Source of the DNA: Haloferax elongans ATCC BAA-1513
Lineage (GTDB): Archaea > Halobacteriota > Halobacteria > Halobacteriales > Haloferacaceae
DNA length: 64,000 nucleotides
Assembly (NCBI RefSeq): GCF_000336755.1
Contig: NZ_AOLK01000024.1
Location: 62,001 to 126,000, forward strand
Direction: 5' to 3'
The notes under the pieces were generated by a model that was not told where the DNA came from, did not search any database, and saw only the letters and a list, made by a program, of their open reading frames with translations. Both the position numbers and the translations under genes were made by a program. Positions 23,721 through 55,015 of the stretch are shown piece by piece; the first letter of the stretch is position 1; each line of letters opens with the position of its first letter.

Positions 23721-26884
<3,164 letters not shown>

Positions 26885-27655
26885 CTACACTGACGAGTGC
26901 TTGAGCGTGAGTTCGATTTCGTTCGCTTTCTCCAAGAGCACTTGCGCAATCTCCTCGGCCCGCTGCTCGTGGTTGATTCGATTGGCGGGGCCAGCGACAC
27001 TCATCGCACCGATGGGCTGTCCGTCGTCGAGTCGAACGGGGACACCGATAGCGTACAGCCCCCTCAGGTGCTCGTCCCGGTCGATGGCGTACCGACGCTC
27101 GCGAATCGCTTCGAGTTCGGCTTGGAGGCTTTCGACCGAGGTGATGGTGTGCTCGGTTTTTCCAGGCAGACCGTGTTGGTCGATAACGTCCGCAACGTGG
27201 TCCTCGGGCAGGTACGCGAGGAGGGCCTTTCCAGCGGTCACGTGGTTGAGATACACGCGATTTCCGATTCGCGTACTCGTCTCGACCGCGTGGTCACCCG
27301 ACTCCCGAACGATGAACACGCCGAGCCCGTGCTCCTCGACGAGATACTGGCATAGCTCACCCGTTTCGTCGGCTACTTCTCGGACCTTCTGTCGGATTAA
27401 CTGGTATCCGGGCTGCCGCTGTCGAGCGTACTCCCCGTGGTCGAGCAGGCCGAGTCCGACGTAGTAGACGTCGTCTTCTTGAACGACGTATCCGTACTCT
27501 TCGAGTGATTTCAGGTGGTTGTACGCAGTACTCTTGGAAACGTCGAGTTCCCGGGCTAGCTCGGACACACCAGCCCCATCGAGTAGTTGAAGCGTCCGAA
27601 GTAACTCCGCCATCCGCGCGATGGACTTGACCGGAACATCCGCGTGCGTGCTCAT
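26885..27655 (-). CDS. IclR family transcriptional regulator
   Basis: A 256-residue regulator. Winged helix at residues 8-70 (RMAELLRTLQLLDGAGVSEL, SKSTAYNHLKSLEEYGYVVQ) and the IclR effector-binding domain (about 80-250; ELCQYLVEEHGLGVFIVRES ..., YLNHVTAGKALLAYLP, YAIDRDEHLRGLYAIGVPV, IGAMSVAGPANRI). IclR proteins commonly control aromatic and carboxylate catabolism, fitting the genes that follow. Start MSTHADVPVK at 27655; an alternative Met at 27664 is possible. It is divergent from the ABC ATPase. Confidence 0.9.
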   Translation of the reverse strand: MSTHADVPVKSIARMAELLRTLQLLDGAGVSELARELDVSKSTAYNHLKSLEEYGYVVQEDDVYYVGLGLLDHGEYARQRQPGYQLIRQKVREVADETGELCQYLVEEHGLGVFIVRESGDHAVETSTRIGNRVYLNHVTAGKALLAYLPEDHVADVIDQHGLPGKTEHTITSVESLQAELEAIRERRYAIDRDEHLRGLYAIGVPVRLDDGQPIGAMSVAGPANRINHEQRAEEIAQVLLEKANEIELTLKHSSV

Positions 27656-27849
27656 AGTTAACATTCAAATCCGTGCTACTTCACCGTTTCGCATTGCCGA
27701 ACGAAGAATGGTACACAATAACATAGACCATGGACGCCCCATACTGAGTTGCTTCAGTCGGCGGCAAGCCGCCGGAGGTGCAAGGCAAGGTTTCGTTATG
27801 GAAAACAGTGAGACACCGGACTCAGCGTGCGAAAGTCGCCGAATTCTCC

Positions 27850-27891: not shown

Positions 27892-28647
27892 ATGATAGAG
27901 ATTGACTCGGTTCGAAAGGTGTACAACGAAGACGTCGTTGCAGTCGGCGACGTGTCGCTCACGATAGAAGAAGGAGACTTCGTGAGCGTCCTCGGCCCAT
28001 CTGGCTGTGGGAAAAGTACACTGCTGTTCATGCTCGGCGGGTTCATCGAACCTACATCCGGGACGATTACGGTAAACGGGGAACAGGTAACGTCCCCTGA
28101 CCCGTCCCGTGGGATGGTGTTCCAAGAGAGCGTGCTGTTCCCGTGGATGACCATCAAAGAGAACATCACGTGGGGCATGAAGGTGCTCGGCGTCGGAGAA
28201 GAAGAGCGCGAACGAGAGGCAGAAGAGTACATCGAGATGATTGGACTGTCGGGGTTCGAAGACGCCTATCCGAACTCCCTGTCCGGCGGCATGAAACAGC
28301 GGGCCGCGATGGCGCGTGTCCTCGCCGTCAACCCCTCTGTCCTCCTGATGGACGAGCCGTTCGGTGCCCTCGACGCGCAGACGAGAGAGATGATGCAGCA
28401 CGAACTGCTCGATATCTGGAGTCAGACCGGACAGACCTGTATGTTCGTCACCCACAGTATCGACGAGGCGCTGTACCTCTCAGACAAAATCGTCGTGCTG
28501 AGTTCCCGACCGAGCAGCGTGGAGTCAATCATCGACGTGAGCGAGCACTTCGAACGTCCGCGGGAAAGCGACATCCGAGAGACGGAGACGTTCACCGAAC
28601 TCCGGCAACAGCTCTGGGGAATGATTCAAGAAGAAGTGACGGTGTGA
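27892..28647 (+). CDS. NitT/TauT-type ABC transporter ATP-binding protein
   Basis: A 251-residue ATPase of the SsuB/TauB/NrtD class. Walker A GPSGCGKST near residue 39, Q-loop VFQESVLFPWMTIKENITWG, signature SLSGGMKQRAAMARVLA, Walker B VLLMDEPFGALDAQTREMMQ and switch VTHSIDEALYLSDKIVVLSSRP. It should energise the permeases at 31148-32784 together with the binding protein at 38664. The import cassette is split among catabolic genes. The substrate is likely an organic acid, inferred from context. Confidence 0.93.
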   Translation: MIEIDSVRKVYNEDVVAVGDVSLTIEEGDFVSVLGPSGCGKSTLLFMLGGFIEPTSGTITVNGEQVTSPDPSRGMVFQESVLFPWMTIKENITWGMKVLGVGEEEREREAEEYIEMIGLSGFEDAYPNSLSGGMKQRAAMARVLAVNPSVLLMDEPFGALDAQTREMMQHELLDIWSQTGQTCMFVTHSIDEALYLSDKIVVLSSRPSSVESIIDVSEHFERPRESDIRETETFTELRQQLWGMIQEEVTV

Positions 28648-28793: not shown

Positions 28794-29375
28794 CTATTCC
28801 TCTTTCAGCTCTTCAGAGCCAGTCCACACGTTCCACGTGTGTTCGTTCTTCGGCCACCGGCGAGCGGGTTTGCCACCTTCCTCGGGTGCGTCCTCCATGT
28901 TCGCAGTCAGTTCGATTGGGTAGCCGTCGGGGTCCGGGAAGTAGAGGAAGAAGTTGTCACCGGGACCGTGCCGACCGGGACCGCGATAAATCGGGTGGTC
29001 GATTTCGCGAAGCCCCTCTTCAGCGGCCTTGAGCGCCTTGAAGTTGGGAACCTCGAACGCGATGTGGTAAATCGGCCCAGTCGTCGGCAGCATCGGCGGG
29101 CCGTCCTCGGGGAGTTCCTCCTCGAAGTCGTGCAGGTCGATGTCGAGTTCGCCGCGCTCTTCGAGCACGTCGAGTTCGGCGTCGGACATCTGTGTAATGT
29201 TCATTTCGTGGTGCTGTGCCTGTGCTGCGACGCTCGGCGTGCGAAGGAATGCAACGCTGTCTCCGATGCGGTCTGAAACCTCCATGTTGAGGACGTTTCG
29301 GTAGAACGCAACGGACTCGTCGATGTCGCGTACTTTGATGGCTATATGGTCTAAGCCCATGTTCTCGACAACCAT
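28794..29375 (-). CDS. VOC family protein, possible extradiol dioxygenase
   Basis: A 193-residue vicinal oxygen chelate protein. Metal-ligand positions are visible: His in LDHIAIKVRDIDE, His in GPIYHIAFEVPNFKA and Glu in DPDGYPIELTANME. Between the two modules is an unusual insert (QMSDAELDVLEERGELDIDL, HDFEEELPEDG). The C-terminus (RRWPKNEHTWNVWTGSEELK) is acidic and unusual. Start MVVENMGLDHI at 29375; MGLDHI at 29360 is an alternative. It could cleave a catechol, or act as a lyase or isomerase. Divergent from the NicX-like gene. Confidence 0.8.
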   Translation of the reverse strand: MVVENMGLDHIAIKVRDIDESVAFYRNVLNMEVSDRIGDSVAFLRTPSVAAQAQHHEMNITQMSDAELDVLEERGELDIDLHDFEEELPEDGPPMLPTTGPIYHIAFEVPNFKALKAAEEGLREIDHPIYRGPGRHGPGDNFFLYFPDPDGYPIELTANMEDAPEEGGKPARRWPKNEHTWNVWTGSEELKEE

Positions 29376-29642: not shown

Positions 29643-30704
29643 ATGGAGAAAGCAGGCCTACTAGTGCCTCTGTTCCGGAGGCAGATGGAGCATTGTCAGG
29701 TAAACGACTCAGAGACCGTTGCATTGGTCACAGACGTGAAGAGTCCCAGGGAGTACGTCGGAGCGGGATTTGCGGCCGCTCAAGACCTCGGCGCCGACGT
29801 TTTCGAGGTACAAGTTCCCGAGTACGGACGCAACTCCGTTGGTCCGGAAATCTCGACTGGACAGGGTGGCACGCTCCGCCTGCCGGAAGGTCCCGTCGAG
29901 GCGTGCAAGAACGCGGATATGGTGTTCGACTTCACGCTCGAAGGATTCATCCACGTACCGGAGCGGACGGAGATTCGCGATTCCGGAACCCGAATCCTCC
30001 GGGTCGGTGCTCGCGAACCGTTCTACCTCCGTCGTCTCATGCCGTGGACCGAAGACGAAGCACAGGCGGTCAAGGAGAAGGTGCAAAAACACAGCCAACT
30101 CCTCGCCGAGACCGACGAGATGCGTATCACGTCCGACCACGGCACGGACGTGACGATGCAAGTCGAGTCGGACACCGCGTTCGACTCCTACGGCTTCGTC
30201 GACACGCCGGGCAAGTGGGACGTCTGGGGGCAGAACATGGTGTCGAACTACCCGACGAACGTCGAGGGAACCATCGTCATCGCGCCCGGCGACTACAATG
30301 TCGTTCCGTTCGCGGACTACGTGAACTCGGCTATCGAGTGCGTCATCGAAGACAACTACATCGTCGAAATCAACGGCGAGGGCGGCGACGCCGAACTGAT
30401 GCGCGGCCACATGGAGAGCTACGACGACCGCGACGTCTTCGCGACGAGTCACTTCGGCTGGGGGCTGAACCCCCACGGGAAGTTCTACGACATGGCACTT
30501 CACGACCGGAAGCCCGACGAGACGGGCGTCAGCGCGAGTGAGGGTCGCGTCTGGTCCGGGAACATGCTCTGGAGCACGGGGCCGAACACGCACATCGACC
30601 GGTACGCGCCGTGCCATTACGACATCGCACAGAAGGGATGTACCGTCTACCTCGACGGGACGCCCGTCGTCGAAGATGGCACCGTCGTCGAAGACATCGT
30701 CTAA
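29643..30704 (+). CDS. 2,5-dihydroxypyridine 5,6-dioxygenase-like protein (NicX family)
   Basis: A 353-residue protein of the M29-like superfamily that matches NicX, the Fe(II) enzyme opening the ring of 2,5-dihydroxypyridine to N-formylmaleamate in nicotinate catabolism. The putative iron ligands are in place: His270 in ATSHFGWGLNPHG, then His325 and Asp327 in APCHYDIAQKGC. The blocks PGKWDVWGQN, ALHDRK, GNMLWSTGPNTHI and CTVYLDGTPVV also agree with NicX. The start with EKAGLLVPLFRRQMEHC aligns with the NicX N-terminus, so ATG 29643 (or GTG 29637) is used. It is often misnamed aminopeptidase. The true substrate may be another hydroxylated N-heterocycle. Confidence 0.82.
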   Translation: MEKAGLLVPLFRRQMEHCQVNDSETVALVTDVKSPREYVGAGFAAAQDLGADVFEVQVPEYGRNSVGPEISTGQGGTLRLPEGPVEACKNADMVFDFTLEGFIHVPERTEIRDSGTRILRVGAREPFYLRRLMPWTEDEAQAVKEKVQKHSQLLAETDEMRITSDHGTDVTMQVESDTAFDSYGFVDTPGKWDVWGQNMVSNYPTNVEGTIVIAPGDYNVVPFADYVNSAIECVIEDNYIVEINGEGGDAELMRGHMESYDDRDVFATSHFGWGLNPHGKFYDMALHDRKPDETGVSASEGRVWSGNMLWSTGPNTHIDRYAPCHYDIAQKGCTVYLDGTPVVEDGTVVEDIV

Positions 30705-31147: not shown

Positions 31148-31975
31148 TTACATGTCGATACTGACGTCGCCCGCCCAGAAGAGCAGGCGTCCGCGGAGGC
31201 GTGCGAGGATTTGGTCGAAGACAATCCCGAGAATCGAGATGAGCACGACGCCCGCGAACACGGTCTCGTACTCGAACGACCCCTGTGCTCTGATGATGAG
31301 ATAGCCGATTCCCTGGCTGGACGCGACGAGTTCCGTCACGACAGTCACGATGAGCGCGATAGGCATCGCCATCCGAATCCCCGAGAAGATGTAGGGGAGA
31401 CTCGCGGGGAGGACGATGTCGCGGAAGATTTGGGTGCGAGAGGCACCGAAGTTCTTGCCGGACCAGATGTGGAGTTTGCTCACGCTCTGGACCCCGTAGT
31501 ACGAGCCGAGCAGGATGGGGATGAGCGACTCGATGAAGATGATGACCAGCTTCGGCGCGTGTCCGAGGCCGAGGATGGCGAGGAGCAAGGGGTAAAACGC
31601 GATGCGTGGAATCGGGTAGAGCGTGCTGATGAGGGGGTCGAGAACGAACTCTACGCGGTCGTCAGAGCCCATCCACAGCCCGATTGGAATCCCGACGACG
31701 ATGGCGGCGGTGAAGCCGACGAACACCCGGAAGAGAGTCGCAAAGATGTCCGAGTACGCGGTGCCCTCGGTGACGAGCATGGTGTATAGCTGGACTGCGA
31801 CGACCTCGACGCGGGGGATGAGCGGCGGGCCGAACGACGACGTGACGAGGAGCGCGCCGAGTTCCCAGAGGACGAGCAACCCGAGGATAGAGAGGTATCC
31901 AATCGGGAACGTCGTCTGTTCCGCCCAGTCGTTCAGGCGACTGAACCACGCTTCACCGCGAGATTGGACGCTCAT
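31148..31975 (-). CDS. NitT/TauT-type ABC transporter permease
   Basis: A 275-residue permease of the SsuC/TauC class with six predicted helices. The EAA-type loop reads GKNFGASRTQIFRDIVLPASLPYIFSGIRMAM. The first helix is at YLSILGLLVLWELGALL. Its start codon overlaps the stop of the upstream permease (ATGA at 31975-31972), so both are co-translated. Partner of the 31972 permease and the 27892 ATPase. Confidence 0.92.
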   Translation of the reverse strand: MSVQSRGEAWFSRLNDWAEQTTFPIGYLSILGLLVLWELGALLVTSSFGPPLIPRVEVVAVQLYTMLVTEGTAYSDIFATLFRVFVGFTAAIVVGIPIGLWMGSDDRVEFVLDPLISTLYPIPRIAFYPLLLAILGLGHAPKLVIIFIESLIPILLGSYYGVQSVSKLHIWSGKNFGASRTQIFRDIVLPASLPYIFSGIRMAMPIALIVTVVTELVASSQGIGYLIIRAQGSFEYETVFAGVVLISILGIVFDQILARLRGRLLFWAGDVSIDM

Positions 31976-32784
31976 CGCTCGTCACCCTCCTGGTAGTAGA
32001 GGAGTCGGCGACGAATCAAAAGCAGCAGGCGGTCGTGGAAGACCCCGAACAACGCAATCACGGAGATTGAGCTGAACATGAGTTCGTAGTTGTTGAACTG
32101 TCTGGCCTGCAGTGCAAGCTGTCCGAGACCGAGGTCGGACTGAATCAGTTCGGCCGAGAAGACGACGATGAACGCGAGCGCGAGCCCGACGCGCAGCCCC
32201 GAGAGAATCTGCGGGAGGCTGTCGGGGATGACGACCTCCGTGAGAATCTGGAACCGCGACGCGTCGAAGTTCTGCGCCGACCAAACGTGAAGCTCCGGGA
32301 CGCCTCGAACCCCGTCGAACGTGTGAATGTACACGGGGTAGAACGCGGCGAGGAACACGACAATCGCCTTCGACATGAACCCGATACCGAACCAAATCAC
32401 GAAGATGGGGAACAACGCAATCTTGGGAATCGGATAGGTCATCGAGACGAGTGGGTCGAACAATCGCCCGAAAAGGGTAATTCGACCCGTGAGGACGCCG
32501 AGGACGATCCCGAGTGCAGCGCCCCCAAAGAACCCTACGTAGACGAGTTGAAGCGTCGCCCACGCGTTCTTGATGAGCGTCCCCTCCGCGAACATCACAA
32601 ACAGGTGGTTCACGATAGTCGTCGGCGCGGGAACGTACACCGGCAGCGCCCCGACGAATCCGAGTGCTTGCCAGAGGAACAAGAGAGCGAGGACCGGTGA
32701 GCTTCGAGTGAGCACCCCGACAGCCGCTTTGACACCCTCTGGAACGGACCCGAACTCGCTCCTGTTTGTCGATTCAGTTTTCAT
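31972..32784 (-). CDS. NitT/TauT-type ABC transporter permease
   Basis: A 270-residue permease with the same organisation as its downstream neighbour: helix VLALLFLWQALGFVGALPVYV and EAA loop AQNFDASRFQILTEVVIPDSLPQILSGLRVGL. Start MKTESTNRSEFG at 32784 is used; the upstream in-frame extension to 33000 lacks membrane-protein character. The two permeases are distinct sequences and should form a heterodimer. The TPP enzyme gene is divergent on the other side of a 188-nt region. Confidence 0.92.
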   Translation of the reverse strand: MKTESTNRSEFGSVPEGVKAAVGVLTRSSPVLALLFLWQALGFVGALPVYVPAPTTIVNHLFVMFAEGTLIKNAWATLQLVYVGFFGGAALGIVLGVLTGRITLFGRLFDPLVSMTYPIPKIALFPIFVIWFGIGFMSKAIVVFLAAFYPVYIHTFDGVRGVPELHVWSAQNFDASRFQILTEVVIPDSLPQILSGLRVGLALAFIVVFSAELIQSDLGLGQLALQARQFNNYELMFSSISVIALFGVFHDRLLLLIRRRLLYYQEGDER

Positions 32785-32972
32785 AGTCTCTCTCCCTCGA
32801 CGATACCGCACTGTTCTGCTCGCTCGAACCCATGCATCATGCGTGCTATCAATAGTGACGACAAGTGCAAAAAGTGTATCTGTCGGTTCCGGCAGAAGCT
32901 GAAGGGTTCGTATCAACTGATTCAAACGACTGGGAGCAAGTTTTATCGTGGCACCTGTTCGAATGGTGAACG

Positions 32973-34634
32973 ATGACAAAGGGAGGAGACTCCGTAGCAC
33001 GCGTGCTCGCGGAGAACGACGTTTCTGAGACCTACGTACTGCTCGGCAATCAGACGGTAGACATCGCCGATGGACTCTTCGAACGCGACATCGACGTGGT
33101 CACGGCACGCCACGAGTACAACGCGGCCGTTATGGCGGACACCTACGGACGGCTGACCGGGAGTCCCGGTGTCGCAATCACTGTTGCTGGACCCGGTGCG
33201 ACGAACGCGCTGACGGGTGTCGCACAGGCGTACACCGCTGCGTCACCGATGGTGCTCGTGAGCGCAGTGTTGCCGGAAGACGCGCCAACCGAGTCGCTGC
33301 ACGGCGTCGACGACCCCTACTTCGTCCAGAAGGCGTTCGAGCCAGCGACCAAGTGGAGCACGCAGGTCCACGACCCCGAGCGTGTTCCCGCCGCACTCAA
33401 CCGGGCGTTCGACGTGGCGACGACCGGTCGCCCCGGACCGGTGTTCGTCGGCATCGACGAAGAAATCCTCATGGAGACGGTGGACATCCCCGAATCGGCG
33501 TTCGAGTGGACACACATCACCGAGACGCCGCCGTCGGCCGAGGCAGTCGTCGACGCGCTCGAACCTATCGAACGTGCCGAGAAGCGAGTGCTCTACCCCG
33601 GAAAAGGCGTTCTCCGGGCGTTCGCGACCGACGAACTCGTCGCAGTCGCCGACGCGCTCGACTGTCCGGTCGTCTGTCCGCGGCACTATCCCGACTCGTT
33701 CCCGAACGACCACGAGGCGTTTGCGGGGACGGTCGGGATGTCCGACCATCCGGCCGCGGTTGCCGCCCTGTCCGAGGCTGAGGCGGTTCTCTCCGTCGGC
33801 GTTCGGCCGAGTTCCCACGAGGCCGCCGTGCTCGACGACCGCACGCCCGACGGCGTGGACATCGTCTACTTCGACTCCGGTGCGGTCGAGTTCCCGCAGT
33901 CGGACGCGGCGGCATTCGTCAACGGCGACCTCTCGACAGTGCTCGGTGCGGCGGCAGACGTGCTGTCCGAGACCGCAGGGACGACCGACCCCGACTACCG
34001 AGCCACTGTCCGCGCAGAGGTCGAGCGCGTTACCGAGGAGGTGGACGCGTACCTCGAAGCAGTCCGTGACCAGACGCCGATTCACCCGCTCGTCATCATG
34101 GCCGAGCTTCGTGACGTGGCCGACGACGACGTGATTATCACGGGGGACGCGGGGGCGGCCGGCGGCGCGTGGCCGAACGACGCCTTCGAATACCGGGCGA
34201 CGAACTCCTTCCAGCACTCCCGGCTGTACGATTCCATGGGGTTCCCCGTTCCGGCCGGGAACGCCGCAAAGCTCGTCGACCCCGACCGACAGGTGGTCAA
34301 CCTCATCGGCGACGGTGGGTTCCTGATGTGCAACATGGAGCTGGCGACGGCCGTCGCAACCGAGACCGACGCCGTCACCGTCGTGATGAACGACGCAAAA
34401 TACGGGATGATTTGGAACTACCAGCGCTCCGACGGGCACGCCGAGATTGCGACCGATATCCCACCGACCGACATCGCGGCGATGGCGGAGTCGTTCGGCG
34501 TGCGGGGCGTCGCCGTCGAGCACCCAGACGAGGTTCGTCCGGCGCTCGAATCGGCGCTCGAAGCGGACGAACACGTCGTCCTCGACGTACACATCGACCC
34601 GACGGCCGAGTACGTCTCCCGGAAGGTCTGGTAG
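32973..34634 (+). CDS. Thiamine-pyrophosphate-dependent enzyme (acetolactate synthase/decarboxylase-like)
   Basis: A 553-residue TPP enzyme with the three-domain layout. The N-terminal PYR domain holds the catalytic Glu in TARHEYNAAVMADTYGRLTG (about residue 48). The C-terminal PP domain has the cofactor motif NLIGDGGFLMCNMELATAV ending at VVMNDAKYGM. AGPGATNALTGVAQAYTAASP is conserved in the acetolactate synthase and benzoylformate decarboxylase group. It may decarboxylate a 2-oxo acid from ring cleavage or make an acyloin. A TTTTATC box at about 32941 suits a leaderless start. Exact reaction unknown. Confidence 0.85.
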   Translation: MTKGGDSVARVLAENDVSETYVLLGNQTVDIADGLFERDIDVVTARHEYNAAVMADTYGRLTGSPGVAITVAGPGATNALTGVAQAYTAASPMVLVSAVLPEDAPTESLHGVDDPYFVQKAFEPATKWSTQVHDPERVPAALNRAFDVATTGRPGPVFVGIDEEILMETVDIPESAFEWTHITETPPSAEAVVDALEPIERAEKRVLYPGKGVLRAFATDELVAVADALDCPVVCPRHYPDSFPNDHEAFAGTVGMSDHPAAVAALSEAEAVLSVGVRPSSHEAAVLDDRTPDGVDIVYFDSGAVEFPQSDAAAFVNGDLSTVLGAAADVLSETAGTTDPDYRATVRAEVERVTEEVDAYLEAVRDQTPIHPLVIMAELRDVADDDVIITGDAGAAGGAWPNDAFEYRATNSFQHSRLYDSMGFPVPAGNAAKLVDPDRQVVNLIGDGGFLMCNMELATAVATETDAVTVVMNDAKYGMIWNYQRSDGHAEIATDIPPTDIAAMAESFGVRGVAVEHPDEVRPALESALEADEHVVLDVHIDPTAEYVSRKVW

Positions 34635-34694: not shown

Positions 34695-35573
34695 ATGCCA
34701 GTAATGGAGCCAACGCCGGAGGATATCGACCTCCGCGCGATGAACTACGAGGCCGACGACGGAATGGAACTCGACGGATTCGAGATTACGAGCGAATCCG
34801 AGACGTTTCACGGTGAACACACCTGCGTCATTTTCCTGCACGGACTCCGCGGATTCGCACTCGGTGCGGGCATCTCTCCGGTCGCCTACCCACTCGCTCG
34901 GGAGGGGATTCGGTGTGTCTCCATCAACAAGCGAAACAGCGGGAAGGGCTACGAGACGTCAGACTTCGCCGAGCTCGACCGCGACATCGCGGGTGCAGTC
35001 GACTGGGCGACGGACAACGGCGCGACGGAAGTCGTCATCTGGGGCCGGAGTCTCGGCGCGACCGAGGCGGCGTACTTCCAAGGGAAGCGAAACGACCCGG
35101 ACGTGGACGCGGTCGTCCTCGCGGCACCCTTCGCCGACATCCGAGAACGGTCGACGAGGGGCTACTTCGAAGCGGTCTCGGACGACGCCGACGCGGCGTA
35201 CGAGAACTTCGTCAGCAACGCCCGCGACCTCGTCGATGCCGGTCGCGGAAACGAAATCGTCGCGCTGCCCCGGCCGGTCGGCGGCGACATCGAATACATC
35301 CCGATGACTGCTGAGTCGTTTCTCTCGTACCGGTCGCCGGAGAGCAAGTGTGCGACCATCGACTGGACGCCCGACATCGAGGTTCCGATACTCCTCCTCC
35401 CGCACTCGTCGGACCGAAACGTCACCCCGGCCGAGGCGGAGGAAATCGCCGAGACGGCGACCGCAAGTCGGCTCGTGGAAGTCGAGCCAATCGCGGCCGA
35501 CCACTTCTTTACCGGAAGCGAACGACAGGTCGCAGACCTCACCGCGTCGTTCATCGAACGCGCTCGCGAGTAG
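34695..35573 (+). CDS. Alpha/beta hydrolase
   Basis: A 292-residue alpha/beta hydrolase. The oxyanion region is CVIFLHGLRGFALGAG; the nucleophile elbow is VIWGRSLGATEAA with Ser in G-x-S-x-G; the general base His is in EPIAADHFFTGSERQ; a candidate acid Asp is in LLPHSSDRNVTPA. In this context it could hydrolyse a ring-cleavage product or N-formylmaleamate-like amide, but the sequence alone does not show which. Start MPVMEPTPED at 34695; 34704 is an alternative. Follows the TPP enzyme by 60 nt in the same direction. Confidence 0.82.
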   Translation: MPVMEPTPEDIDLRAMNYEADDGMELDGFEITSESETFHGEHTCVIFLHGLRGFALGAGISPVAYPLAREGIRCVSINKRNSGKGYETSDFAELDRDIAGAVDWATDNGATEVVIWGRSLGATEAAYFQGKRNDPDVDAVVLAAPFADIRERSTRGYFEAVSDDADAAYENFVSNARDLVDAGRGNEIVALPRPVGGDIEYIPMTAESFLSYRSPESKCATIDWTPDIEVPILLLPHSSDRNVTPAEAEEIAETATASRLVEVEPIAADHFFTGSERQVADLTASFIERARE

Positions 35574-35618: not shown

Positions 35619-36077
35619 CTAGTGGAACAACGGGTCGTCGTCGTGGTCATCGACGGGACCCATCGGCGTGTGGAGAAGGTCTGAAAACAGCGACATGTCT
35701 TTTCGACTCAGTGCAACCAGTTCCGCGACGCCCAGCCGGCACGAGTAGCCGAGCTTTGGCGAATCGATTTCGAGTCGCGGCCCGTCGTCGGTGTCGAACA
35801 CGGTGAGTTGGACGACGGTGTACTCGTTTCCAATCTGTAGGGTTTCGTCGGTCGAAACCGGGTTCTCTCCCGGGGCGTATTCGACGCCAGTCAGTTCGGT
35901 GAAGAACTCGTCTTCCTGCCACGTGAGGCTCTCCAGTGCGAGTGCGTCGAGGCGTATCGAGTCGTCGTCCGTCTCGAGGCGGAGCCGCTCTCCCGCGGGG
36001 GTCAGTTCCCGGGTGAGCGAAACCGTTCGGTCGTCGCCCCGGAGCGTTACGGTCGGGTTGTCGGTCGTGTCGGTCAT
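35619..36077 (-). CDS. Unknown protein linked to the Rieske dioxygenase
   Basis: A 152-residue protein without signal peptide or membrane segment. Its ATG at 36077 overlaps the stop of the oxygenase beta-subunit gene, so translation is coupled. The sequence is beta-rich and acidic (TVTLRGDDRTVSLTRELTPA, LRLETDDDSIRLDALALESL, ..., YTVVQLTVFDTDDGPRLEI) and ends in DDHDDDPLFH. No Cys or Rieske motif, so it is not the usual ferredoxin or reductase. I do not recognise the family. Its position suggests an accessory or stabilising subunit of the oxygenase. Confidence 0.75.
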   Translation of the reverse strand: MTDTTDNPTVTLRGDDRTVSLTRELTPAGERLRLETDDDSIRLDALALESLTWQEDEFFTELTGVEYAPGENPVSTDETLQIGNEYTVVQLTVFDTDDGPRLEIDSPKLGYSCRLGVAELVALSRKDMSLFSDLLHTPMGPVDDHDDDPLFH

Positions 36078-36586
36078 AGGATTATCGAGAGCGTGTTCGT
36101 CGGGATTATCGTGTGGTCGAGCAGGACGCGCCGCTCGGCGATTTTGAATCCCTCGTCTGTTCGCCGGAGCGTGTCGTGGCGCTCCATCGAGAGGATGTCG
36201 GGGTCGGTCTCGTCGCCCTGCTGTCGGAAGATGAGGAGGTTGTTCTTGAGCGTGACCTCCTCGCCGTCGTCGTCGACGATGCGGACGTTGCTCACGTGAC
36301 GACGCGTTCGCGACGGCGGGTCTTCCGACCACGCGAAGTCGCTTTGCATCCGCTCGGTCCGCACCTCTAACGTCCCCCAGTCTTCCTTCATGTGGAACGA
36401 AGTGTCGCTGAACTCCGTGGTGTTGGACCGTTCGCGGGTCGTGCGGATGGGGACGCGGTAGTCGATGTCCTCGGTCACGAGGTCGTGCCACTCGGTGAGC
36501 TTGCGGTCGTCGAGTAGTTCGGCCGCGTGATAGAGGAACTCCTCGCATTCGGCCCGGAGCGTCGGGTTCGAAACGGATTCGCTCAT
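36074..36586 (-). CDS. Aromatic-ring-hydroxylating dioxygenase, beta subunit
   Basis: A 170-residue small subunit of a Rieske ring-hydroxylating dioxygenase, fold of the SnoaL/NTF2 type. Landmarks: CEEFLYHAAELLDDRKLTEWHDLVTEDIDYRVPIRTTRE, SDTSFHMKEDWGTLEVRTERM, SRTRRHVSNVRI, and the C-terminal RRTDEGFKIAERRVLLDHTI. It has no metal site and shapes the hexamer. It starts one base after the alpha-subunit stop. Confidence 0.93.
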   Translation of the reverse strand: MSESVSNPTLRAECEEFLYHAAELLDDRKLTEWHDLVTEDIDYRVPIRTTRERSNTTEFSDTSFHMKEDWGTLEVRTERMQSDFAWSEDPPSRTRRHVSNVRIVDDDGEEVTLKNNLLIFRQQGDETDPDILSMERHDTLRRTDEGFKIAERRVLLDHTIIPTNTLSIIL

Positions 36587-37963
36587 CTACATCCCCCCGT
36601 CAGAGGTCATCGCCTCGTGCCAAGTCCGATAGAAGTCGAGTTGGTTCTCGTCGGTCATGCCGCCTTCGAGGTACGCGGTTCCGGGGCCGACCCACTCGTC
36701 GTAGACGGTCGCCGCCGGGTTCTCGCCGCGACCCATCGTAAACAGCGTGTTCACGTCGTCGTTCTGGCGGGCGAAGACGCTGCCGGCGGCCTCGTCGATA
36801 CCGTACCAGATGCCGACGTCGTCGACCTCGAAGTTCCCCGAGGGGCTGAAGTTCGACATCCCAACCTCGTAGACGCGCTCTTTGTACTCGTCGGAGGCGT
36901 CCTTCGGGGCGAGTATCCAGTTTACGACCTCCATCTTTCCGGCTCCCCGCGGCTCCCACTTTCGGAGCAGGAAGGTGCCGACAGAGTCTTTCTCGGGGTC
37001 GTCGCGGCCGCCGAGGAAGATAAACGAGAGGTTCGGGAAAATCGTTCCCAGCGTCACGCCGGACTTCCGCGCAACTTCGTGTTGGTCGTCGTCGAGCGCG
37101 TCGTGATTGAACGTCTCGACGACCTCCGGCGGGTGGCCCCAGTAGCTGTCTTCTTCGGACTCGATTTGGTAGAAGCTGAACCCGTGGCCGTCGCAGTCGG
37201 CGATACCGTACAGGTTACTCTCTTTTTCACCCGTCGCCGTGTCGCTGCCCACGCCCGCGTCGATGGCAGACTTGTGGCCCATCGGGATGTGGTAGTTGTC
37301 TCCGTAGAAGTTCTCTGTCGGCGTCTTCCAGTCGTTTTCGACCTCCCAGCGGTGGGGGTCGCCGATGACTTCCATGTCGATGAGGTCGAAGTACATGTCG
37401 AGGAACCACGTCGCACCGCCGAGGAACTCCTCCAGTGGCTCAACTTCCGGCGCGACACAGGCGAATACGAGACCGTTGTACTCCTCGACGTGTGGGGCCT
37501 CGTGGAGGCCTCGTTCCTCGGCGTCGAGATGGTCGAACCCGGCGGCCTTCTGCGGAACGCCCACGAGGTCGCCCGTGTTCTTGTACGTCCACCCGTGGTA
37601 GGGACACCGGAAGTGCGAGGTGTTGCCCTTCTCCGCCCGGCAGACGTTCGCCCCTCGGTGTCGGCAACTGTTGAACAGGACGCGGAAATCGCCGTCCTCG
37701 CCGCGGACGAAAATGAACGGGTCCTCGCCGATGGTCCGCTGTCGGTAGTCCCCCGGCTCTGGGACCTCGGACTCGTGGCCGACGTACACCCACGTCTGTC
37801 CGAAAATTCGTTCGAGCTCAAGTTGGTGGACGGCGTCGTCGTTCAGTATCTGCATCGGTACCTCGCCGTCTTCGAGGGTCTCGCCCATTCGTTCGAGAAG
37901 CGCCTTCACTCGACCGAACTCCGTCTGGCTAGTAGACTGTGATTCGTCAATACCGTGTGACAT
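36587..37963 (-). CDS. Aromatic-ring-hydroxylating dioxygenase, alpha subunit
   Basis: A 458-residue catalytic subunit that adds both atoms of O2 to an aromatic ring, giving a cis-dihydrodiol. The Rieske [2Fe-2S] motif is C100-x-H102 (CRHRGANVCRA) and C120-x2-H123 (CPYHGW). The mononuclear iron site shows D222, H225 and H230 in NFYGDNYHIPMGH. The C-terminal domain continues to HEAMTSDGGM. TTTATG about 27 nt upstream of ATG 37963 suits a leaderless transcript. No reductase or Rieske ferredoxin gene lies nearby. Closest in type to benzoate/biphenyl-like enzymes; substrate unproven. Confidence 0.95.
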   Translation of the reverse strand: MSHGIDESQSTSQTEFGRVKALLERMGETLEDGEVPMQILNDDAVHQLELERIFGQTWVYVGHESEVPEPGDYRQRTIGEDPFIFVRGEDGDFRVLFNSCRHRGANVCRAEKGNTSHFRCPYHGWTYKNTGDLVGVPQKAAGFDHLDAEERGLHEAPHVEEYNGLVFACVAPEVEPLEEFLGGATWFLDMYFDLIDMEVIGDPHRWEVENDWKTPTENFYGDNYHIPMGHKSAIDAGVGSDTATGEKESNLYGIADCDGHGFSFYQIESEEDSYWGHPPEVVETFNHDALDDDQHEVARKSGVTLGTIFPNLSFIFLGGRDDPEKDSVGTFLLRKWEPRGAGKMEVVNWILAPKDASDEYKERVYEVGMSNFSPSGNFEVDDVGIWYGIDEAAGSVFARQNDDVNTLFTMGRGENPAATVYDEWVGPGTAYLEGGMTDENQLDFYRTWHEAMTSDGGM

Positions 37964-38663: not shown

Positions 38664-39674
38664 ATGCCTGTGAGAGACACTCATGCAAACAGGCGAGACG
38701 TTTTGAAAGCGACCGGCACCGCAGTCGCCGCAGGCAGCCTCGCCGGCTGTCTGGGCAGTGTCACCGGCGGTGGGTCGTCGACAGTCTCGATCACGCTCGG
38801 ACACGGAATCGCATCGGAAGAACCCCTGTGGCTGATGGATGCGATGCCCGATATCCTCGACCACTGGGGGAGCGCGTACGAAGCGGAATTCAAGGCGTTC
38901 CCCGCAAACAACCAACGCTTGCAAGCGTTCCAAGCGGGCGAATTACAGGCGGGGACTTCGGCGGCCGTCACCGCCATCTTCTCGACGAACAAGGGCCTCC
39001 CGCTCACTGTCGTCGCGAACATCACACAGGAGCGGGAAGACACGTTCCACGAGAAGTTCCTCGCCCGACCGGACTCGGGCATGAACGGGCTGAACAAGGA
39101 ATCGCTCGAAGGGAAGAAAATCGGCATCTGTGCGTTCAAGTCCTGGTGTGACCTGTGGGCGCAGTCGGCGATTCGAGAGGTCGGCCTCGTACCGGACGAA
39201 GACGTCGAACTGGTGAAGGTCCCGTTCCCGTCGATGGGAGAAGCGGTGAGTAAAGGACAGGTCGACACCGCGATATTCCCGCCGGTGTTCGAGATGCTGG
39301 GGAAGCAGAAACACGGCCTAGAACCCATCTTCAGCGTCATCGACACGGTCGGCTGGGAACACGACCTGATGGAGCTGTGGTTCTCGACCCAGTTCATCGA
39401 ACAGAACCCAGATGTCGTCGAGAAGTTCCTCCAGGACTACTCGACCGCCGTCGACTACTACAACCAAAACACCAAGGAATCGAAGCGGGCGATTCACGAT
39501 GCTGGGTACGTCCAGACGCCGAAAGAGACCTACGTGTCGCTCCCCAACTACACCCACAGCGTTCAGCCGCTCACCGAGAGTCTGAAGAAAATCAACCAAC
39601 TCGTCGCCGACATGGGGTGGATCGAAGAGCCGGTGGATATTGACAACCTCTACAACCTCGACTACCTCCCCTAA
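38664..39674 (+). CDS. NitT/TauT-type ABC transporter substrate-binding lipoprotein
   Basis: A 336-residue extracellular binding protein. The N-terminus is a Tat lipoprotein signal: NRRDVLKATGTAVAAGSLAGC with the lipid-modified Cys near residue 30. The mature part follows the NMT1/SsuA pattern (SITLGHGIASEEPLWLMDAM, QRLQAFQAGELQAGTSAAV, EGKKIGICAFKSWCDLWAQS, KGQVDTAIFPPVFEMLGKQ). It delivers substrate to the permeases at 31148-32784. The ligand is likely the aromatic compound degraded by neighbouring genes, by context only. Confidence 0.92.
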   Translation: MPVRDTHANRRDVLKATGTAVAAGSLAGCLGSVTGGGSSTVSITLGHGIASEEPLWLMDAMPDILDHWGSAYEAEFKAFPANNQRLQAFQAGELQAGTSAAVTAIFSTNKGLPLTVVANITQEREDTFHEKFLARPDSGMNGLNKESLEGKKIGICAFKSWCDLWAQSAIREVGLVPDEDVELVKVPFPSMGEAVSKGQVDTAIFPPVFEMLGKQKHGLEPIFSVIDTVGWEHDLMELWFSTQFIEQNPDVVEKFLQDYSTAVDYYNQNTKESKRAIHDAGYVQTPKETYVSLPNYTHSVQPLTESLKKINQLVADMGWIEEPVDIDNLYNLDYLP

Positions 39675-39818
39675 ACCGACAACAACCATTTTCGGGCAGC
39701 CTTTGAAGCGCACACTGGCACGACGGACACCGAGCGCGGCACACGCCGCGTGCGGATTCTCCGGCGAACGTTCGTCCCCTGCACACACTTATGGTTCTGG
39801 TCTCCCTTCGTCGGTGTA

Positions 39819-40637
39819 ATGACGTGGCTCGACAACCAAGTAGCATTGATTACGGGTGGTGCCTCAGGCCTCGGTCGCGCAGTGGTCGAACGCTTCCTCG
39901 ACGAAGGAGCCAAAGTGGCCGTCCTCGACGTCGACCGCGACCGACTCGACGCACTCGAACACGAGTCTGACGACGTTCTCACCATCCACGGCGACGTGAC
40001 TTCGTTCGACGACAACGAGCGGGCAGTCTCGGAGACAGTCGACCAGTTCGGCCGACTCGACGTGTTCGTCGGCAACGCTGGCGTCTTCGACGACAACGTC
40101 TCGCTTCCGGAACTCGACGCCGACGACATCGGCACGAGTTTCGCCGAACTGTTCGAAATCAACGTGCTCGGCTATCTACTGGGTGCCCGCGCCGCACTCC
40201 CCGAACTTGTCGAGACCGAAGGCCGAATCGTATTCACCGCCTCGCAGGCGAGTTTCAACTCCGACGGCGGGGGTATCCTGTACGTCCCCTCGAAACACGC
40301 AATCGCGGGCATCGTTCGACAACTCGCGTTCGAGCTCGCACCCACCGTCCGAGTCAATGCGGTCGCTCCGGGATACGTCCCGACGGAGCTTAGCGCGACC
40401 GACACGCTCGGCGGGGACCGAGCAATCGTGACGGCCGAGGAGTTCGACGCTTCCAACCACCCGCTCGATATCGTCCCGACACCCGAGGACTACACCGGTC
40501 CCTACGTGCTGTTGGCGTCCCGGGAGAACTCGCGGCCCATGACGGGGACGATTATCCGCGCCGACCTCGGTCGCTCGGTCCGGGGAATCACGTCCGTCGC
40601 CGGCCGTGCAGCCGAGTTCGTCACAGACGGGCTCTGA
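39819..40637 (+). CDS. SDR oxidoreductase, cis-dihydrodiol dehydrogenase-like
   Basis: A 272-residue short-chain dehydrogenase. Cofactor motif TGGASGLGRA at residues 10-19, acidic D in AVLDVDRDRL suggesting NAD+ preference, NAG in VGNAGVFDDN, catalytic Ser in FTASQAS and Y-x3-K in YVPSKHAIAG. Overall it resembles BphB-type cis-2,3-dihydrodiol dehydrogenases (ENSRPMTGTIIRADLGRSVRG), which restore the aromatic ring after Rieske attack, and this is its likely role here. Start MTWLDNQVALIT at 39819. Confidence 0.85.
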   Translation: MTWLDNQVALITGGASGLGRAVVERFLDEGAKVAVLDVDRDRLDALEHESDDVLTIHGDVTSFDDNERAVSETVDQFGRLDVFVGNAGVFDDNVSLPELDADDIGTSFAELFEINVLGYLLGARAALPELVETEGRIVFTASQASFNSDGGGILYVPSKHAIAGIVRQLAFELAPTVRVNAVAPGYVPTELSATDTLGGDRAIVTAEEFDASNHPLDIVPTPEDYTGPYVLLASRENSRPMTGTIIRADLGRSVRGITSVAGRAAEFVTDGL

Positions 40638-40768
40638 CTGTCGGCGACGACAGCGGACGCTGATTACTGGGAGACTGGTGCCAGCTAGCACTGATTACTG
40701 AGAGCCCGGTGGCCGCAGAGTCCGCCGTTCCCGAATGACTTTTGCTACCGTATTACAACGAACGTACT

Positions 40769-41596
40769 ATGCCGCTTAGAGTGAGCCTCTTCGGTTGCGG
40801 AACCATCGGTACAGAAGTCGCCCGTGCGTTCGCCGACGGGACAATCAACGCCGACCTCGTGCGTATCTACGACCGAAACGCGGAGAAGCGCCAGTCCGTC
40901 GTCGACGAATTTCGAGCGGGCGACGCCCCGGAGCCAGTCGACGATTTCACAGACCTGTTCGACGGCGTGGACCTCGTGGTCGAAGCCGCCGGGCAGTCCG
41001 CTGTCGACGAGGTGACCGTTCCGAGCCTCGAATCCGGATGCGACGTCCTGCTCTTGAGTGCCGGTGCGCTCGCCGCTTCCGAACTCCGCCAGCAGGTCGT
41101 TCGAACCGCCGAGCGGGAAGGACAGGTCGTTCACGTCCCCTCAGGAGCTATCGCAGGCCTCGACGCGGTGAAAGCCGCAGCCCTGACCGGCGATTTGGAG
41201 ACAGTCTCGTTGACGACGACGAAGAACCCCGCCGGCCTCGAAGGGGCACCGTACCTCGTCGAGAACGACATCGACCTGTCGGCGCTCGACTCGGCGACGA
41301 CCGTGTTCGAGGGCTCCGCGACGGAAGCGGCGCTCGCATTCCCGTCGAACATCAACGTCGCGATGGCACTGAGCCTCGCGGGTATCGGGCCGGGTGGGAC
41401 GACGGTTCGAATCGTTGCCGACCCCGATGAGTCGAACAACGTCCACCACATCGAGGCGACGGGCGGAATGGGGTCTATCGAGACGACGGTGCGCAACGTC
41501 CCGTCACCGACGAATCCGAAGACGAGCTATCTCGCTGCCGTCTCGGCCATCGAGAAGCTTCGGACCATGGGTGCGACGGTCCGGGTTGGAACCTAG
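40769..41596 (+). CDS. L-aspartate dehydrogenase-like NAD(P) oxidoreductase
   Basis: A 275-residue protein of the aspartate dehydrogenase/NadX family. Rossmann motif SLFGCGTIGTEVA at the N-terminus, then VEAAGQSAVDE, LLLSAGALAA, HVPSGAIAGLDAVKAAAL, LTTTKNPAGLEG, FPSNINVAMALSLAGIGPGG and the catalytic His region NNVHHIEATG. The enzyme interconverts aspartate and oxaloacetate with ammonia, or makes iminoaspartate for NAD synthesis. No nadA or nadC is nearby. In a catabolic cluster it may handle an amino or imino product of ring opening. Start MPLRVSLFG at 40769. Confidence 0.85.
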   Translation: MPLRVSLFGCGTIGTEVARAFADGTINADLVRIYDRNAEKRQSVVDEFRAGDAPEPVDDFTDLFDGVDLVVEAAGQSAVDEVTVPSLESGCDVLLLSAGALAASELRQQVVRTAEREGQVVHVPSGAIAGLDAVKAAALTGDLETVSLTTTKNPAGLEGAPYLVENDIDLSALDSATTVFEGSATEAALAFPSNINVAMALSLAGIGPGGTTVRIVADPDESNNVHHIEATGGMGSIETTVRNVPSPTNPKTSYLAAVSAIEKLRTMGATVRVGT

Positions 41597-41602
41597 ACAC
41601 AG

Positions 41603-42475
41603 ATGGAGGCGGTACTCCCCGTCCTGTTCGCGCTCGTGACGGCGTTCGCCTTCGCCGTCTCGACGGTTCTCGTCCGGGTGGGTGTGAGAGAATCGAGCCC
41701 GCTTGCCGCGCTCGTCGTCACGATGGCCGTGAACGTGGCTGTTCTGTGGGGGCTGAGTCTCGTCTGGTACGACGTGTCCGTCGACCTGTGGTCGTGGCGC
41801 TGGTTCATCCTCGCGGGCATCTTCGCGCCGGCACTGGGTCGGCTCGCCAACTACATCGGAATCCAGCGCGTCGGCGCGAACCTCGTCTCCCCGATTACCA
41901 ACATGAACCCGCTCGTGTCGGTCGGACTGGCGATTGTGTTACTCGGCGAACGCCTGCCGATTCCCGGATACGTGGGAGTGGTGCTCGCCGTCGCAGGCGG
42001 CGTCGTCCTCGCGTCAGTTCGCGGCGACGGAATCAATCGCGTTCGCAGAACTGACCTCCTGTTTCCGCTGTTCGGTGCGCTCACGTACGGGACGGTTCAG
42101 ATATTCCGAAAAATCGGGACCGACCTCGTCGCCGAACCGACAATCGGCGCGGCAGTGAACTTGACCACGTCGTTCGTTCTCGTTGCGGGCGGTATCGTCG
42201 CCACGGGGCGACTGGAGACACTCGTTGTTCCGCGCCGCGACGCGCTCACCTTCGTCGCCGCCGGCGTCGTCTCCAGCCTCGGCTTGGCGTCGCTGTACGC
42301 CGCGCTCAGTCTCGGGAAGGTGACCGTCGTCACGCCGATATTCAACGCCTCGCCGCTCTTCGTCCTCTTGTTGACGGGGCTGTTCGTCCGAGACGGCGAG
42401 CTATTTAGCAAGCGCGTCCTCGTCGGGACAGTGACCATCGTCGCCGGAGTGGCGGTGCTGACGATGTGGACGTGA
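41603..42475 (+). CDS. EamA/DMT family transporter
   Basis: A 290-residue membrane protein with ten predicted helices in two five-helix EamA repeats (first AVLPVLFALVTAFAFAVSTV; second LLFPLFGALTYGTVQIFRKI). PIFNASPLFVLLLTGLFVRDGE near the end is typical. Such proteins export metabolites or amino acids. It starts 6 nt after the aspartate dehydrogenase-like gene, so they share a transcript, hinting at export of a related compound. Confidence 0.88.
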   Translation: MEAVLPVLFALVTAFAFAVSTVLVRVGVRESSPLAALVVTMAVNVAVLWGLSLVWYDVSVDLWSWRWFILAGIFAPALGRLANYIGIQRVGANLVSPITNMNPLVSVGLAIVLLGERLPIPGYVGVVLAVAGGVVLASVRGDGINRVRRTDLLFPLFGALTYGTVQIFRKIGTDLVAEPTIGAAVNLTTSFVLVAGGIVATGRLETLVVPRRDALTFVAAGVVSSLGLASLYAALSLGKVTVVTPIFNASPLFVLLLTGLFVRDGELFSKRVLVGTVTIVAGVAVLTMWT

Positions 42476-47397: not shown

Positions 47398-47805
47398 TCA
47401 GCCCTGATCGTTGGCATCGCCAGACTGGTCGGCCACGTCGGCCTCGCCATGCTGGTCGACCGCGCCAGCATCGACAGACTGACCGAGCGCGTCGGCCTCG
47501 TCTCCGAACTCGTTGCGCAGCAACTCTGGAACGTCCTCCGGTCGAACGTCGGAATACCAGCGATTTCGCGGGTGAATCGCAATCGCGGCACCGTCGGCGC
47601 TGCACAGCCCGAGGCAACTCGTCTCGGCGACGTAGACGTGCGACCAGAACACGCCGCGGTCACGGAGCCACGATTTCACCGCGTCGTACACGGCCGGGCC
47701 GTGAGCCTCTGCGCAGGCCGCGTACTCGGAGTCTCGACTGTTCGTACAGACCAGCACGTGGTCCGTGAAGCCGTGTTCTCTGACCTCGTCGGTTCGGTCC
47801 TTCAT
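47398..47805 (-). CDS. Thioredoxin-like [2Fe-2S] ferredoxin of the cobalamin locus
   Basis: A 135-residue protein with a thioredoxin-fold [2Fe-2S] domain: HVLVCTNSRDSEYAACAEAH and ETSCLGLCSADGAAIAIHP (four Cys), then RWYSDVRPEDVPELL. An acidic tail ends DQSGDANDQG. The same domain forms the C-terminus of CbiX at 55.9-56.2 kb. It overlaps the stop of cbtA by one base, so it is in the cobalt uptake operon cbtB-cbtA-fdx. Probably supplies electrons for corrin or cobalt reduction, by context. Confidence 0.85.
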   Translation of the reverse strand: MKDRTDEVREHGFTDHVLVCTNSRDSEYAACAEAHGPAVYDAVKSWLRDRGVFWSHVYVAETSCLGLCSADGAAIAIHPRNRWYSDVRPEDVPELLRNEFGDEADALGQSVDAGAVDQHGEADVADQSGDANDQG

Positions 47806-48707
47806 CAGTCGGCTGAGAGCGTTGCCCCACGGCTCGCAGCCGAGGGGTCAGTCTGGGAGGAATTCGACGACCGAAGCTGTGCGTGCGTCGTCGCGAGGAG
47901 CAGCCACACGAGGACCTGCCCGAATACGAACAGTCCAGTCATCCCGGTTCGAAGTTCGGGCGAGAGCGCACCCTGAATCGTGTTCGTCGGGGCCAACACG
48001 GCTGGAATCGCGAGGAGGCCGAAGGGGAGAATCCCGCCGACGATGGCGGCACCACGGCCGTTCGACGCCCGCAGTCGGTTGTACACGTACCCTGCCAACA
48101 GACAGGTGAGCGCCCCGGCGACCATCATCCCAGCGTAGAGCGGGATGCGAGTCGAGACTGGAAGCGACTGCTGCGCACCGGGTGACGCTGGCGGCAACAC
48201 CAGCCACGGAGCACCCGAGACGGTGACGAATCCGGCAAGTCCCATCGCGTAGCTCTTGGCCGCGCCAGTCCCCGGAATCGCGGGTTCGAGGAAGTAGAAT
48301 GCGATACCGAAGAACGCGCCACCGAGCAAGATGGCCCAGAGACCGCCGGAAATGACGCTCACCGCCTTGTTGACTGCCATCGAGACGGCGGTGTCGTGGT
48401 GGCCCTCGCCTCCGTCGGCGTGGCCCGTACCCTCACCCTCGTCGGTGTGGCCTCCTGCTTCGTGACTGTGTCCTGCTTCTTCGTGGTCGTGCCCACTACC
48501 TTCCTCGTGACCGTGGTCGCCTTCGTCTCCGTGGGCGTGAGCAGCCTCAGATTCGTGCTCGTGCCCGCCATCGACTTCCGCTGCAGCGTGGTTCATCTCG
48601 TCGGCGTAGACGACAAGCGGGTTGGCGACGACGGCCATGAACAGGCCGAAGACGATTCCGGCGACGAGCCCCGCTTTCACGCCTCGCGTCAGATACTCCG
48701 CGAGCAT
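47805..48707 (-). CDS. cbtA: Cobalt transporter subunit CbtA
   Basis: A 300-residue membrane protein. The first helix is LVAGIVFGLFMAVVANPLVV. An extracytoplasmic loop of about 65 residues is unusually rich in His, Glu and Gly (HEHESEAAHAHGDEGDHGHE and further HDHEEAGHSH), a likely metal-gathering segment. Four further helices follow (SVISGGLWAILLGGAFFGIA ...). CbtA/CbtB pairs are known cobalt uptake candidates, often next to cobalamin genes. Co-transcribed with cbtB 2 nt upstream. Confidence 0.92.
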   Translation of the reverse strand: MLAEYLTRGVKAGLVAGIVFGLFMAVVANPLVVYADEMNHAAAEVDGGHEHESEAAHAHGDEGDHGHEEGSGHDHEEAGHSHEAGGHTDEGEGTGHADGGEGHHDTAVSMAVNKAVSVISGGLWAILLGGAFFGIAFYFLEPAIPGTGAAKSYAMGLAGFVTVSGAPWLVLPPASPGAQQSLPVSTRIPLYAGMMVAGALTCLLAGYVYNRLRASNGRGAAIVGGILPFGLLAIPAVLAPTNTIQGALSPELRTGMTGLFVFGQVLVWLLLATTHAQLRSSNSSQTDPSAASRGATLSAD

Positions 48708-48898: not shown

Positions 48899-49071
48899 TC
48901 TAAATTCAGATTGAGTAACCGCAAACTAGATTGTAAAAGTTTCGAGAGAAGTCAACATAGGTTGTTCTAACGCAATTTTATTTTAATAACTCAGAGTCGT
49001 ATTTTATGAAACTGTAGTTTCTGTAGTACAAGCACAATTGTTTTCAAACGGCGCTCAGATTGTTAGCGCAA
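48899..49071. promoter_or_regulatory. Divergent AT-rich promoter of cobalt uptake and corrin operons
   Basis: 173 nt drive cbtBA and the cbi operon. AT-rich stretches include CAATTTTATTTTAATAAC. A dyad GAAACT-GT-AGTTTC lies at 49008-49021, and CTGTAGT is directly repeated there. No B12-riboswitch-like structure is apparent to me. A cobalt- or B12-responsive repressor site is a guess. Confidence 0.4.
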
Positions 49072-49629
49072 ATGTCACGCCTACAACTCCCGCACGACGC
49101 CAAGGCGGGTCCCACGAAACCCGAGGTGAGAGCGGTGACACTCGACAAACTCGGCTTGCGCCCGACAGACCACTTCGTCGACGTTGGGTCGTGTACCGGC
49201 TCTGTCACCATCGAGGCGGCACGGCGAGTTCGACGAGTGACGGCAGTCGAGCGAAAACCGAACCGACTGGACGTCACGAAGAAAAATCTCGCCGCGAACG
49301 AGTACGACGCCGACGTGACGCTTCGCGAGGCGGAAGCCCCCGAAGGCCTCCCCGAAGACGCCGACGCGATGTTCATCGGCGGAAGCCGGAACTTCGAGGC
49401 GGTGCTCGACCACGCCGTCGAGACCGACGTGGACCGCATCGTGATGAACGTCTCGCGGGTCGAACCGACGGGTGCGGCCATCGAGGCGTTCCGCGAGCGC
49501 GACCTGCTCGACGAAGTCGTCCAGATGCAGGTGAACCACGGGTACGAACTCGCCGGAGCGACGAGTTTCCGGTCGAACAACCCCGTCTACATCATCGTCG
49601 GCCGACGCGACGCCGGAGGGCTGGACTGA
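49072..49629 (+). CDS. cbiT: Cobalt-precorrin-6B (C15)-methyltransferase, decarboxylating
   Basis: A 185-residue SAM enzyme that methylates C15 and decarboxylates the C12 acetate of cobalt-precorrin-6B. Glycine-rich SAM motif FVDVGSCTGSVTIEAARR near residue 40, AVERKPNRLDVTKKN and DADAMFIGGSRNFEAVL are typical. Its partner methyltransferase CbiE is not in the window. Start MSRLQLPHDAKAG at 49072. Its stop overlaps the cbiL start by one base, so this begins a tightly packed operon. Confidence 0.94.
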   Translation: MSRLQLPHDAKAGPTKPEVRAVTLDKLGLRPTDHFVDVGSCTGSVTIEAARRVRRVTAVERKPNRLDVTKKNLAANEYDADVTLREAEAPEGLPEDADAMFIGGSRNFEAVLDHAVETDVDRIVMNVSRVEPTGAAIEAFRERDLLDEVVQMQVNHGYELAGATSFRSNNPVYIIVGRRDAGGLD

Positions 49630-53027: not shown

Positions 53028-53030
53028 TCC

Positions 53031-53990: not shown

Positions 53991-53991
53991 G

Positions 53992-54941: not shown

Positions 54942-54955
54942 ACCACCCCGGTTCT

Positions 54956-54995: not shown

Positions 54996-55015
54996 CCCAC
55001 CGAATCCGACCACGA

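Follow-up and report, generated by a model that had tools for sequence, protein, structure and literature searches.

A NicX-family dioxygenase-like protein encoded in a conserved Rieske oxygenase gene cluster of haloarchaea

The closest described relative of the protein considered here is NicX of Pseudomonas putida KT2440. In the crystal structure of NicX, iron is bound by His265, Ser302, His318, and Asp320, and replacement of each of these residues by Ala resulted in the loss of both activity and iron (PMC7910607). The substrate, 2,5-dihydroxypyridine, is held by His105, Glu177, and His189, with Glu308 acting as a gate of the channel (PMC7910607). According to the same study, NicX and Hpo constitute a subclass of their own among the non-heme iron dioxygenases, and no obvious full-length structural homologue emerged when the authors searched with DALI (PMC7910607).

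The stretch of Haloferax elongans DNA that we analysed, referred to here as the window, is 64,000 nucleotides long and contains an open reading frame for a NicX-like protein (Table 1) that extends from an ATG at 29643 to a stop codon ending at 30704, with an in-frame GTG two codons upstream of the ATG. The only credible match of this protein in a phmmer search of all PDB chains was NicX (7CN3, 7CNT, and 7CUP; E 1.1e-50, residues 7–349), and a profile built from 50 sequences of the family likewise matched NicX alone in the PDB (E 9e-131). The identity between the two proteins was 34.5% in a multiple alignment. A sequence-only reading of the same DNA had described the product as a NicX homologue with blocks agreeing over the full length, and sequence comparison confirmed this homology to be full-length and far above chance. 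An AlphaFold2 model of the protein (pLDDT 86.5, pTM 0.86) was overlaid on NicX, a check that the sequence-only reading had proposed, and VIA-align showed the same fold (Z 45.6 to 7cn3_C, with an rmsd of 1.7 Å over 334 aligned residues); Foldseek was consistent with this match.

His270, His325, and Asp327, located in the motifs SHFGWGL and CHYD, had been put forward as iron ligands. Their correspondence to His265, His318, and Asp320 of NicX held, and to these must be added a fourth ligand, Ser311, which had been omitted. All four residues were invariant in 50 aligned relatives, and the overlay and the alignment together predict that their side chains converge as in NicX. With the copies of Pfam and NCBIfam that we used, no model matched either this protein or the NicX of a nicotinate cluster (L034 9980-11026). 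The absence of such a model may be the reason why NicX-family proteins are labelled, for example, leucyl aminopeptidase or hypothetical protein. The earlier warning of mislabelling was indeed borne out: database entries of bacterial relatives carry the names "leucyl aminopeptidase" or "peptidase M29."

Table 1. Genes of the cluster and predicted iron ligands of the NicX-like protein (window coordinates).
Feature	Coordinates	Strand	Basis
IclR-family regulator	26885..27664	-	PF01614, PF09339
ABC importer ATPase, taurine/nitrate type	27892..28647	+	PF00005, NCBIfam
VOC-family protein, 188 aa, His/His/Glu metal triad; possible second dioxygenase	28794..29360	-	PF00903 4.5e-16
NicX-family dioxygenase-like protein, 353 aa	29643..30704	+	phmmer 7CN3, AlphaFold model, invariant ligands
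Predicted Fe ligand His270	30450-30452	+	aligns with NicX His265; motif SHFGWGL
Predicted Fe ligand Ser311	30573-30575	+	aligns with NicX Ser302
Predicted Fe ligand His325	30615-30617	+	aligns with NicX His318; motif CHYD
Predicted Fe ligand Asp327	30621-30623	+	aligns with NicX Asp320; motif CHYD
ABC importer permease	31148..31975	-	PF00528
ABC importer permease; true start probably downstream of ORF start	31972..33000	-	PF00528
ThDP-dependent enzyme (acetolactate synthase / benzoylformate decarboxylase superfamily), 553 aa	32973..34634	+	PF02775/02776/00205
Alpha/beta hydrolase, 292 aa; possible hydrolase for ring-cleavage product	34695..35573	+	Pfam; conserved beside NicX-like and ThDP genes
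Small conserved hypothetical protein, start approximate	35619..36077	-	Salinigranum homologue; unnamed Halocatena gene in equivalent place
Rieske ring-hydroxylating dioxygenase beta subunit	36074..36586	-	PF00866 1.1e-34
Rieske ring-hydroxylating dioxygenase alpha subunit	36587..37963	-	PF00355, PF00848
NMT1/THI5-like ABC solute-binding protein	38664..39674	+	PF09084
Short-chain dehydrogenase (SDR), candidate cis-dihydrodiol dehydrogenase	39750..40637	+	PF00106 1.9e-45
L-aspartate dehydrogenase-like protein	40742..41596	+	PF01958 7.7e-32; PDB 2dc1 6.7e-31
EamA-family transporter	41603..42475	+	PF00892

Close orthologues (77–88%) were present in three of 147 related genomes in addition to that of H. 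elongans itself, and none was detected in 14 other genomes of the genus Haloferax. The gene is plasmid-borne in two of these three, Halostella pelagica and Salinigranum rubrum, and a further plasmid copy was found in Halocatena salina. A further scan, limited to a single genome for each species and covering at least 80 loci, added (among the matches listed) Haloarcula amylovorans, Natrialba chahannaoensis, Natrarchaeobius chitinivorans, and Halobacteriales YIM A00010, together with a homologue at 49% in Metallosphaera javensis. A NicX-like gene is thus carried by at least nine haloarchaea and one Metallosphaera and is not confined to H. elongans. The archaeal origin stated in the sequence-only reading is supported, and its suggestion of novelty agrees with the open-access literature that we searched, which yielded no report of an archaeal NicX. 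In a maximum-likelihood tree, the ten archaeal sequences formed one branch (support 98/100) apart from that of the nicotinate NicX proteins (100/96). Given the patchy distribution and the plasmid location, lateral spread of the gene is suggested.

The genes around the NicX-like gene in H. elongans resemble a catabolic set. In the Rieske alpha subunit, both the CRH/CPYH motif of the Rieske centre and the DNYHxxxxH motif of the iron site are intact, and the best PDB match of this subunit was Rhodococcus naphthalene dioxygenase (1.8e-93). The solute-binding protein showed no solved homologue at E 0.001, and the small conserved protein had no Pfam match. Among the cluster genes examined, none for a ferredoxin or reductase that would serve the Rieske oxygenase was seen, which counts against the reading that we prefer below. 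Elsewhere in the window, a catalase-peroxidase-like open reading frame (714 aa, 23721-25865) just outside the catabolic cluster resembles katG of other haloarchaeal plasmids, and a cobalamin biosynthesis cluster (several TP-methylases, CbiG, and CbiX; 49038-56230) lies near a gene for a CbtA cobalt transporter (47805-48707).

A Rieske ring-hydroxylating dioxygenase is encoded beside the NicX-like gene in all 10 archaea listed. The genes for the NicX-like protein, the ThDP enzyme, the aspartate dehydrogenase-like protein, both Rieske subunits, the IclR regulator, and a VOC protein are present in nine of nine haloarchaeal clusters, with the genes in shuffled order; the alpha/beta hydrolase gene is found in eight of the nine (it was not seen within the Natrarchaeobius stretch) and that for SDR in seven. 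The VOC protein retains its His/His/Glu triad in eight haloarchaea and has a two-domain form in one genome (G108). Of the 147 genomes, those with an orthologue of the ThDP enzyme are exactly the four that have the NicX-like gene, a coincidence of 1 in 1.9e7 by simple counting that ignores kinship; the aspartate dehydrogenase is encoded in these four genomes and in two others. In Metallosphaera, the NicX-like gene is accompanied by genes for Rieske alpha and beta subunits, an SDR just downstream, and a two-domain VOC protein. The Rieske alpha gene of S. rubrum (L023 13556-14892) appears to be split over two reading frames near codon 104, which might reflect a frameshift or a pseudogene.

NicX-family genes also accompany Rieske alpha and beta and SDR genes in three bacteria: Neobacillus vireti (L051 30-11690), Thermomonospora (L094 4225-13813), and Amycolatopsis (L116 1315-13836). 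These clusters additionally contain genes for maleate isomerase and an isochorismatase-type amidase, and a CN-hydrolase gene lies just downstream of NicX in the two checked, those of N. vireti and Amycolatopsis. They have the look of pyridine pathways that begin with a Rieske oxygenase and end in maleate, and such gene sets would link Rieske oxidation to the opening of pyridine-type rings. A different set (L032 9980-17708), which consists of a NicX-family gene (pocket Thr/Val/His/Tyr) with genes for an acyl-CoA-dehydrogenase-like protein, an alpha/beta hydrolase, a glutamine-synthetase-like protein, and a flavin reductase, is widespread in alphaproteobacteria (also L031, L059, L063, L079, and many others).

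We consider it probable, with a likelihood of about two in three, that the H. elongans protein is an Fe(II) ring-cleaving dioxygenase of the NicX family that acts after Rieske dioxygenation on a substrate different from that of NicX and probably N-heteroaromatic. The N-heterocyclic part of this reading is an analogy with the habit of the family and with the bacterial neighbourhoods. In the pathway that we envisage, the ABC importer would take up an aromatic, probably N-heteroaromatic, acid, the Rieske oxygenase would add two hydroxyls in keeping with the chemistry of its family, and the SDR would rearomatise the resulting dihydrodiol. The NicX-like enzyme, with its predicted iron on His270, Ser311, His325, and Asp327, would then open the ring; by analogy with NicX, the bond cut would be that from a hydroxylated carbon to the carbon adjoining nitrogen. 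An N-acyl or 2-oxo-acid product might be converted to central metabolites and ammonia by the alpha/beta hydrolase, the ThDP enzyme, and the aspartate dehydrogenase-like protein in any order, one possibility being hydrolysis followed by ThDP-dependent decarboxylation and then a deamination or amination step. In the case of 3,4-dihydroxypyridine, the equivalent bond is cut by an unrelated enzyme, and deformylation then yields 3-formylpyruvate, a 2-oxo acid (PMC7356986). A product of this type would provide natural roles for the alpha/beta hydrolase and the ThDP enzyme.

Given the deposited names of its relatives, the protein might instead be a metallo-aminopeptidase of the M29 type, in which case calling it a dioxygenase would be an error. 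Peptidases of family M29 have a two-metal site with Glu ligands. The M29 enzymes AmpT (2ayi), PepS (4icq), and AmpS (1zjc) do show a distant kinship of fold with our model (Z about 22, rmsd 4.0–4.4 Å), and haloarchaeal M29 relatives share His and Asp at the positions of His325 and Asp327. However, the fold of NicX is far closer, Glu and Ala take the places of His270 and Ser311 in the haloarchaeal M29 relatives, and the Pfam M29 model PF02073 did not match the H. elongans protein up to E 10, whereas it matched a haloarchaeal M29 relative, which served as a positive control, at E 1.8e-15. A peptidase is therefore very improbable. A true 2,5-dihydroxypyridine 5,6-dioxygenase of an archaeal nicotinate or pyridine pathway deserves more weight, NicX being the sole solved homologue and all four iron ligands being present together with His104 and Arg302, the equivalents of NicX His105 and Arg293; several bacterial nicotinate clusters themselves encode Phe at the position of His105. 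The alignment of pocket residues, from which the distant sequences dist_L007, L010, and L020 were left out, nevertheless showed that Glu177, His189, and Glu308 of NicX are replaced by Ser182, Val194, and His317 in all ten archaeal members listed, whereas NicX proteins of nicotinate clusters retain Glu, His, and Glu. No bacterial sequence in the aligned set has Val at the position of His189. The H. elongans cluster also yielded no gene for NicA/B, NicC, NicD, NicE, or NicF, and a NicE query of the whole genome gave no match for a maleate isomerase. A companion family search of the H. elongans genome with PF17645 carries no weight here, as the control genomes gave no match. One weak match to an isochorismatase domain was found in the H. 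elongans genome on another contig, and no BLAST match was seen between NicD and the cluster alpha/beta hydrolase in the loci compared. The changes in pocket and gate residues thus disfavour 2,5-dihydroxypyridine as the substrate, although they do not thereby prove another. We regard the 2,5-dihydroxypyridine-type activity proposed in the sequence-only reading as improbable.

The VOC protein, which is found in every haloarchaeal cluster, in Metallosphaera, and in N. vireti, is a competing candidate for ring cleavage and counts against our preferred assignment. It might open the Rieske/SDR product itself, with the NicX-like enzyme acting later or on the second ring of a bicyclic substrate. The conserved metal triad fits such a role, as do the extradiol-like two-domain forms in G108, Metallosphaera, and N. 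vireti and a Caballeronia cluster in which a VOC gene, and no NicX gene, accompanies those for a Rieske protein, a ThDP enzyme, and an aspartate dehydrogenase. We nonetheless judge this division of labour to be rather unlikely, given that the Rieske/SDR/NicX clusters of Thermomonospora and Amycolatopsis gave no VOC match within the 19 kb examined and that the haloarchaeal protein is shorter than classical two-domain extradiol enzymes. More speculatively, the archaeal clade might open a non-pyridine ring, carbocyclic or otherwise heteroaromatic, supplied by the Rieske dioxygenase. The NicX fold would then represent a general ring-cleaving family plugged into both bacterial and archaeal Rieske pathways, with the haloarchaeal downstream route passing through the ThDP enzyme and the aspartate dehydrogenase-like protein; we hold this to be a minority possibility.

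An archaeal branch that combines the iron site of NicX with an altered pocket and with a Rieske partner would broaden the known chemistry of the fold. Haloarchaea and one member of Sulfolobales would gain a ring-opening step that is not named by any Pfam or NCBIfam model, and the cluster predicts that a single gene set of operon size, in many cases carried by a haloarchaeal megaplasmid, enables growth on an aromatic compound.

The auxin iad pathway was considered as a described counterpart because of its Rieske/ABC set and was rejected; no mention of a NicX-like or aspartate dehydrogenase protein was found for it in the text consulted. In Rhodococcus rhodochrous PY11, breakdown of 2-hydroxypyridine by the hpo pathway is reportedly started by a multicomponent ring-hydroxylating dioxygenase, and the ring-opening enzyme HpoH is said to be a cyclase-type protein. 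As so described, the PY11 pathway would share with the archaeal cluster the proposed Rieske-type start and would differ in that its ring opener is not a NicX homologue. Bacterial neighbourhoods of aspartate dehydrogenase genes were mixed and mostly unrelated, with only plasmid pNK84 of Caballeronia sp. NK8 (L041 1666-13516) resembling the haloarchaeal set in its genes for Rieske, SDR, ThDP (26% identity), aspartate dehydrogenase, aldehyde dehydrogenase, VOC, and IclR proteins. The NicX-family proteins of N. vireti, Thermomonospora, and Amycolatopsis retain the four iron ligands and have Rieske/SDR neighbours, as do those of archaea. In contrast, the maleate isomerase, isochorismatase-type amidase, and CN-hydrolase genes of these bacteria are absent from the archaeal clusters, and the three sequences have Gln and His at the positions of Glu177 and His189 and were not placed specifically with the archaeal clade by the tree. 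Given this lack of grouping, the archaeal pathway need not be the same as the bacterial one. Compared with P. putida NicX, the archaeal protein shows about 34% identity, belongs to a separate clade with an altered pocket, and has no nicotinate genes nearby, whereas full-length homology, fold, the four iron ligands, and the equivalents of His105 and Arg293 are alike in the two proteins.
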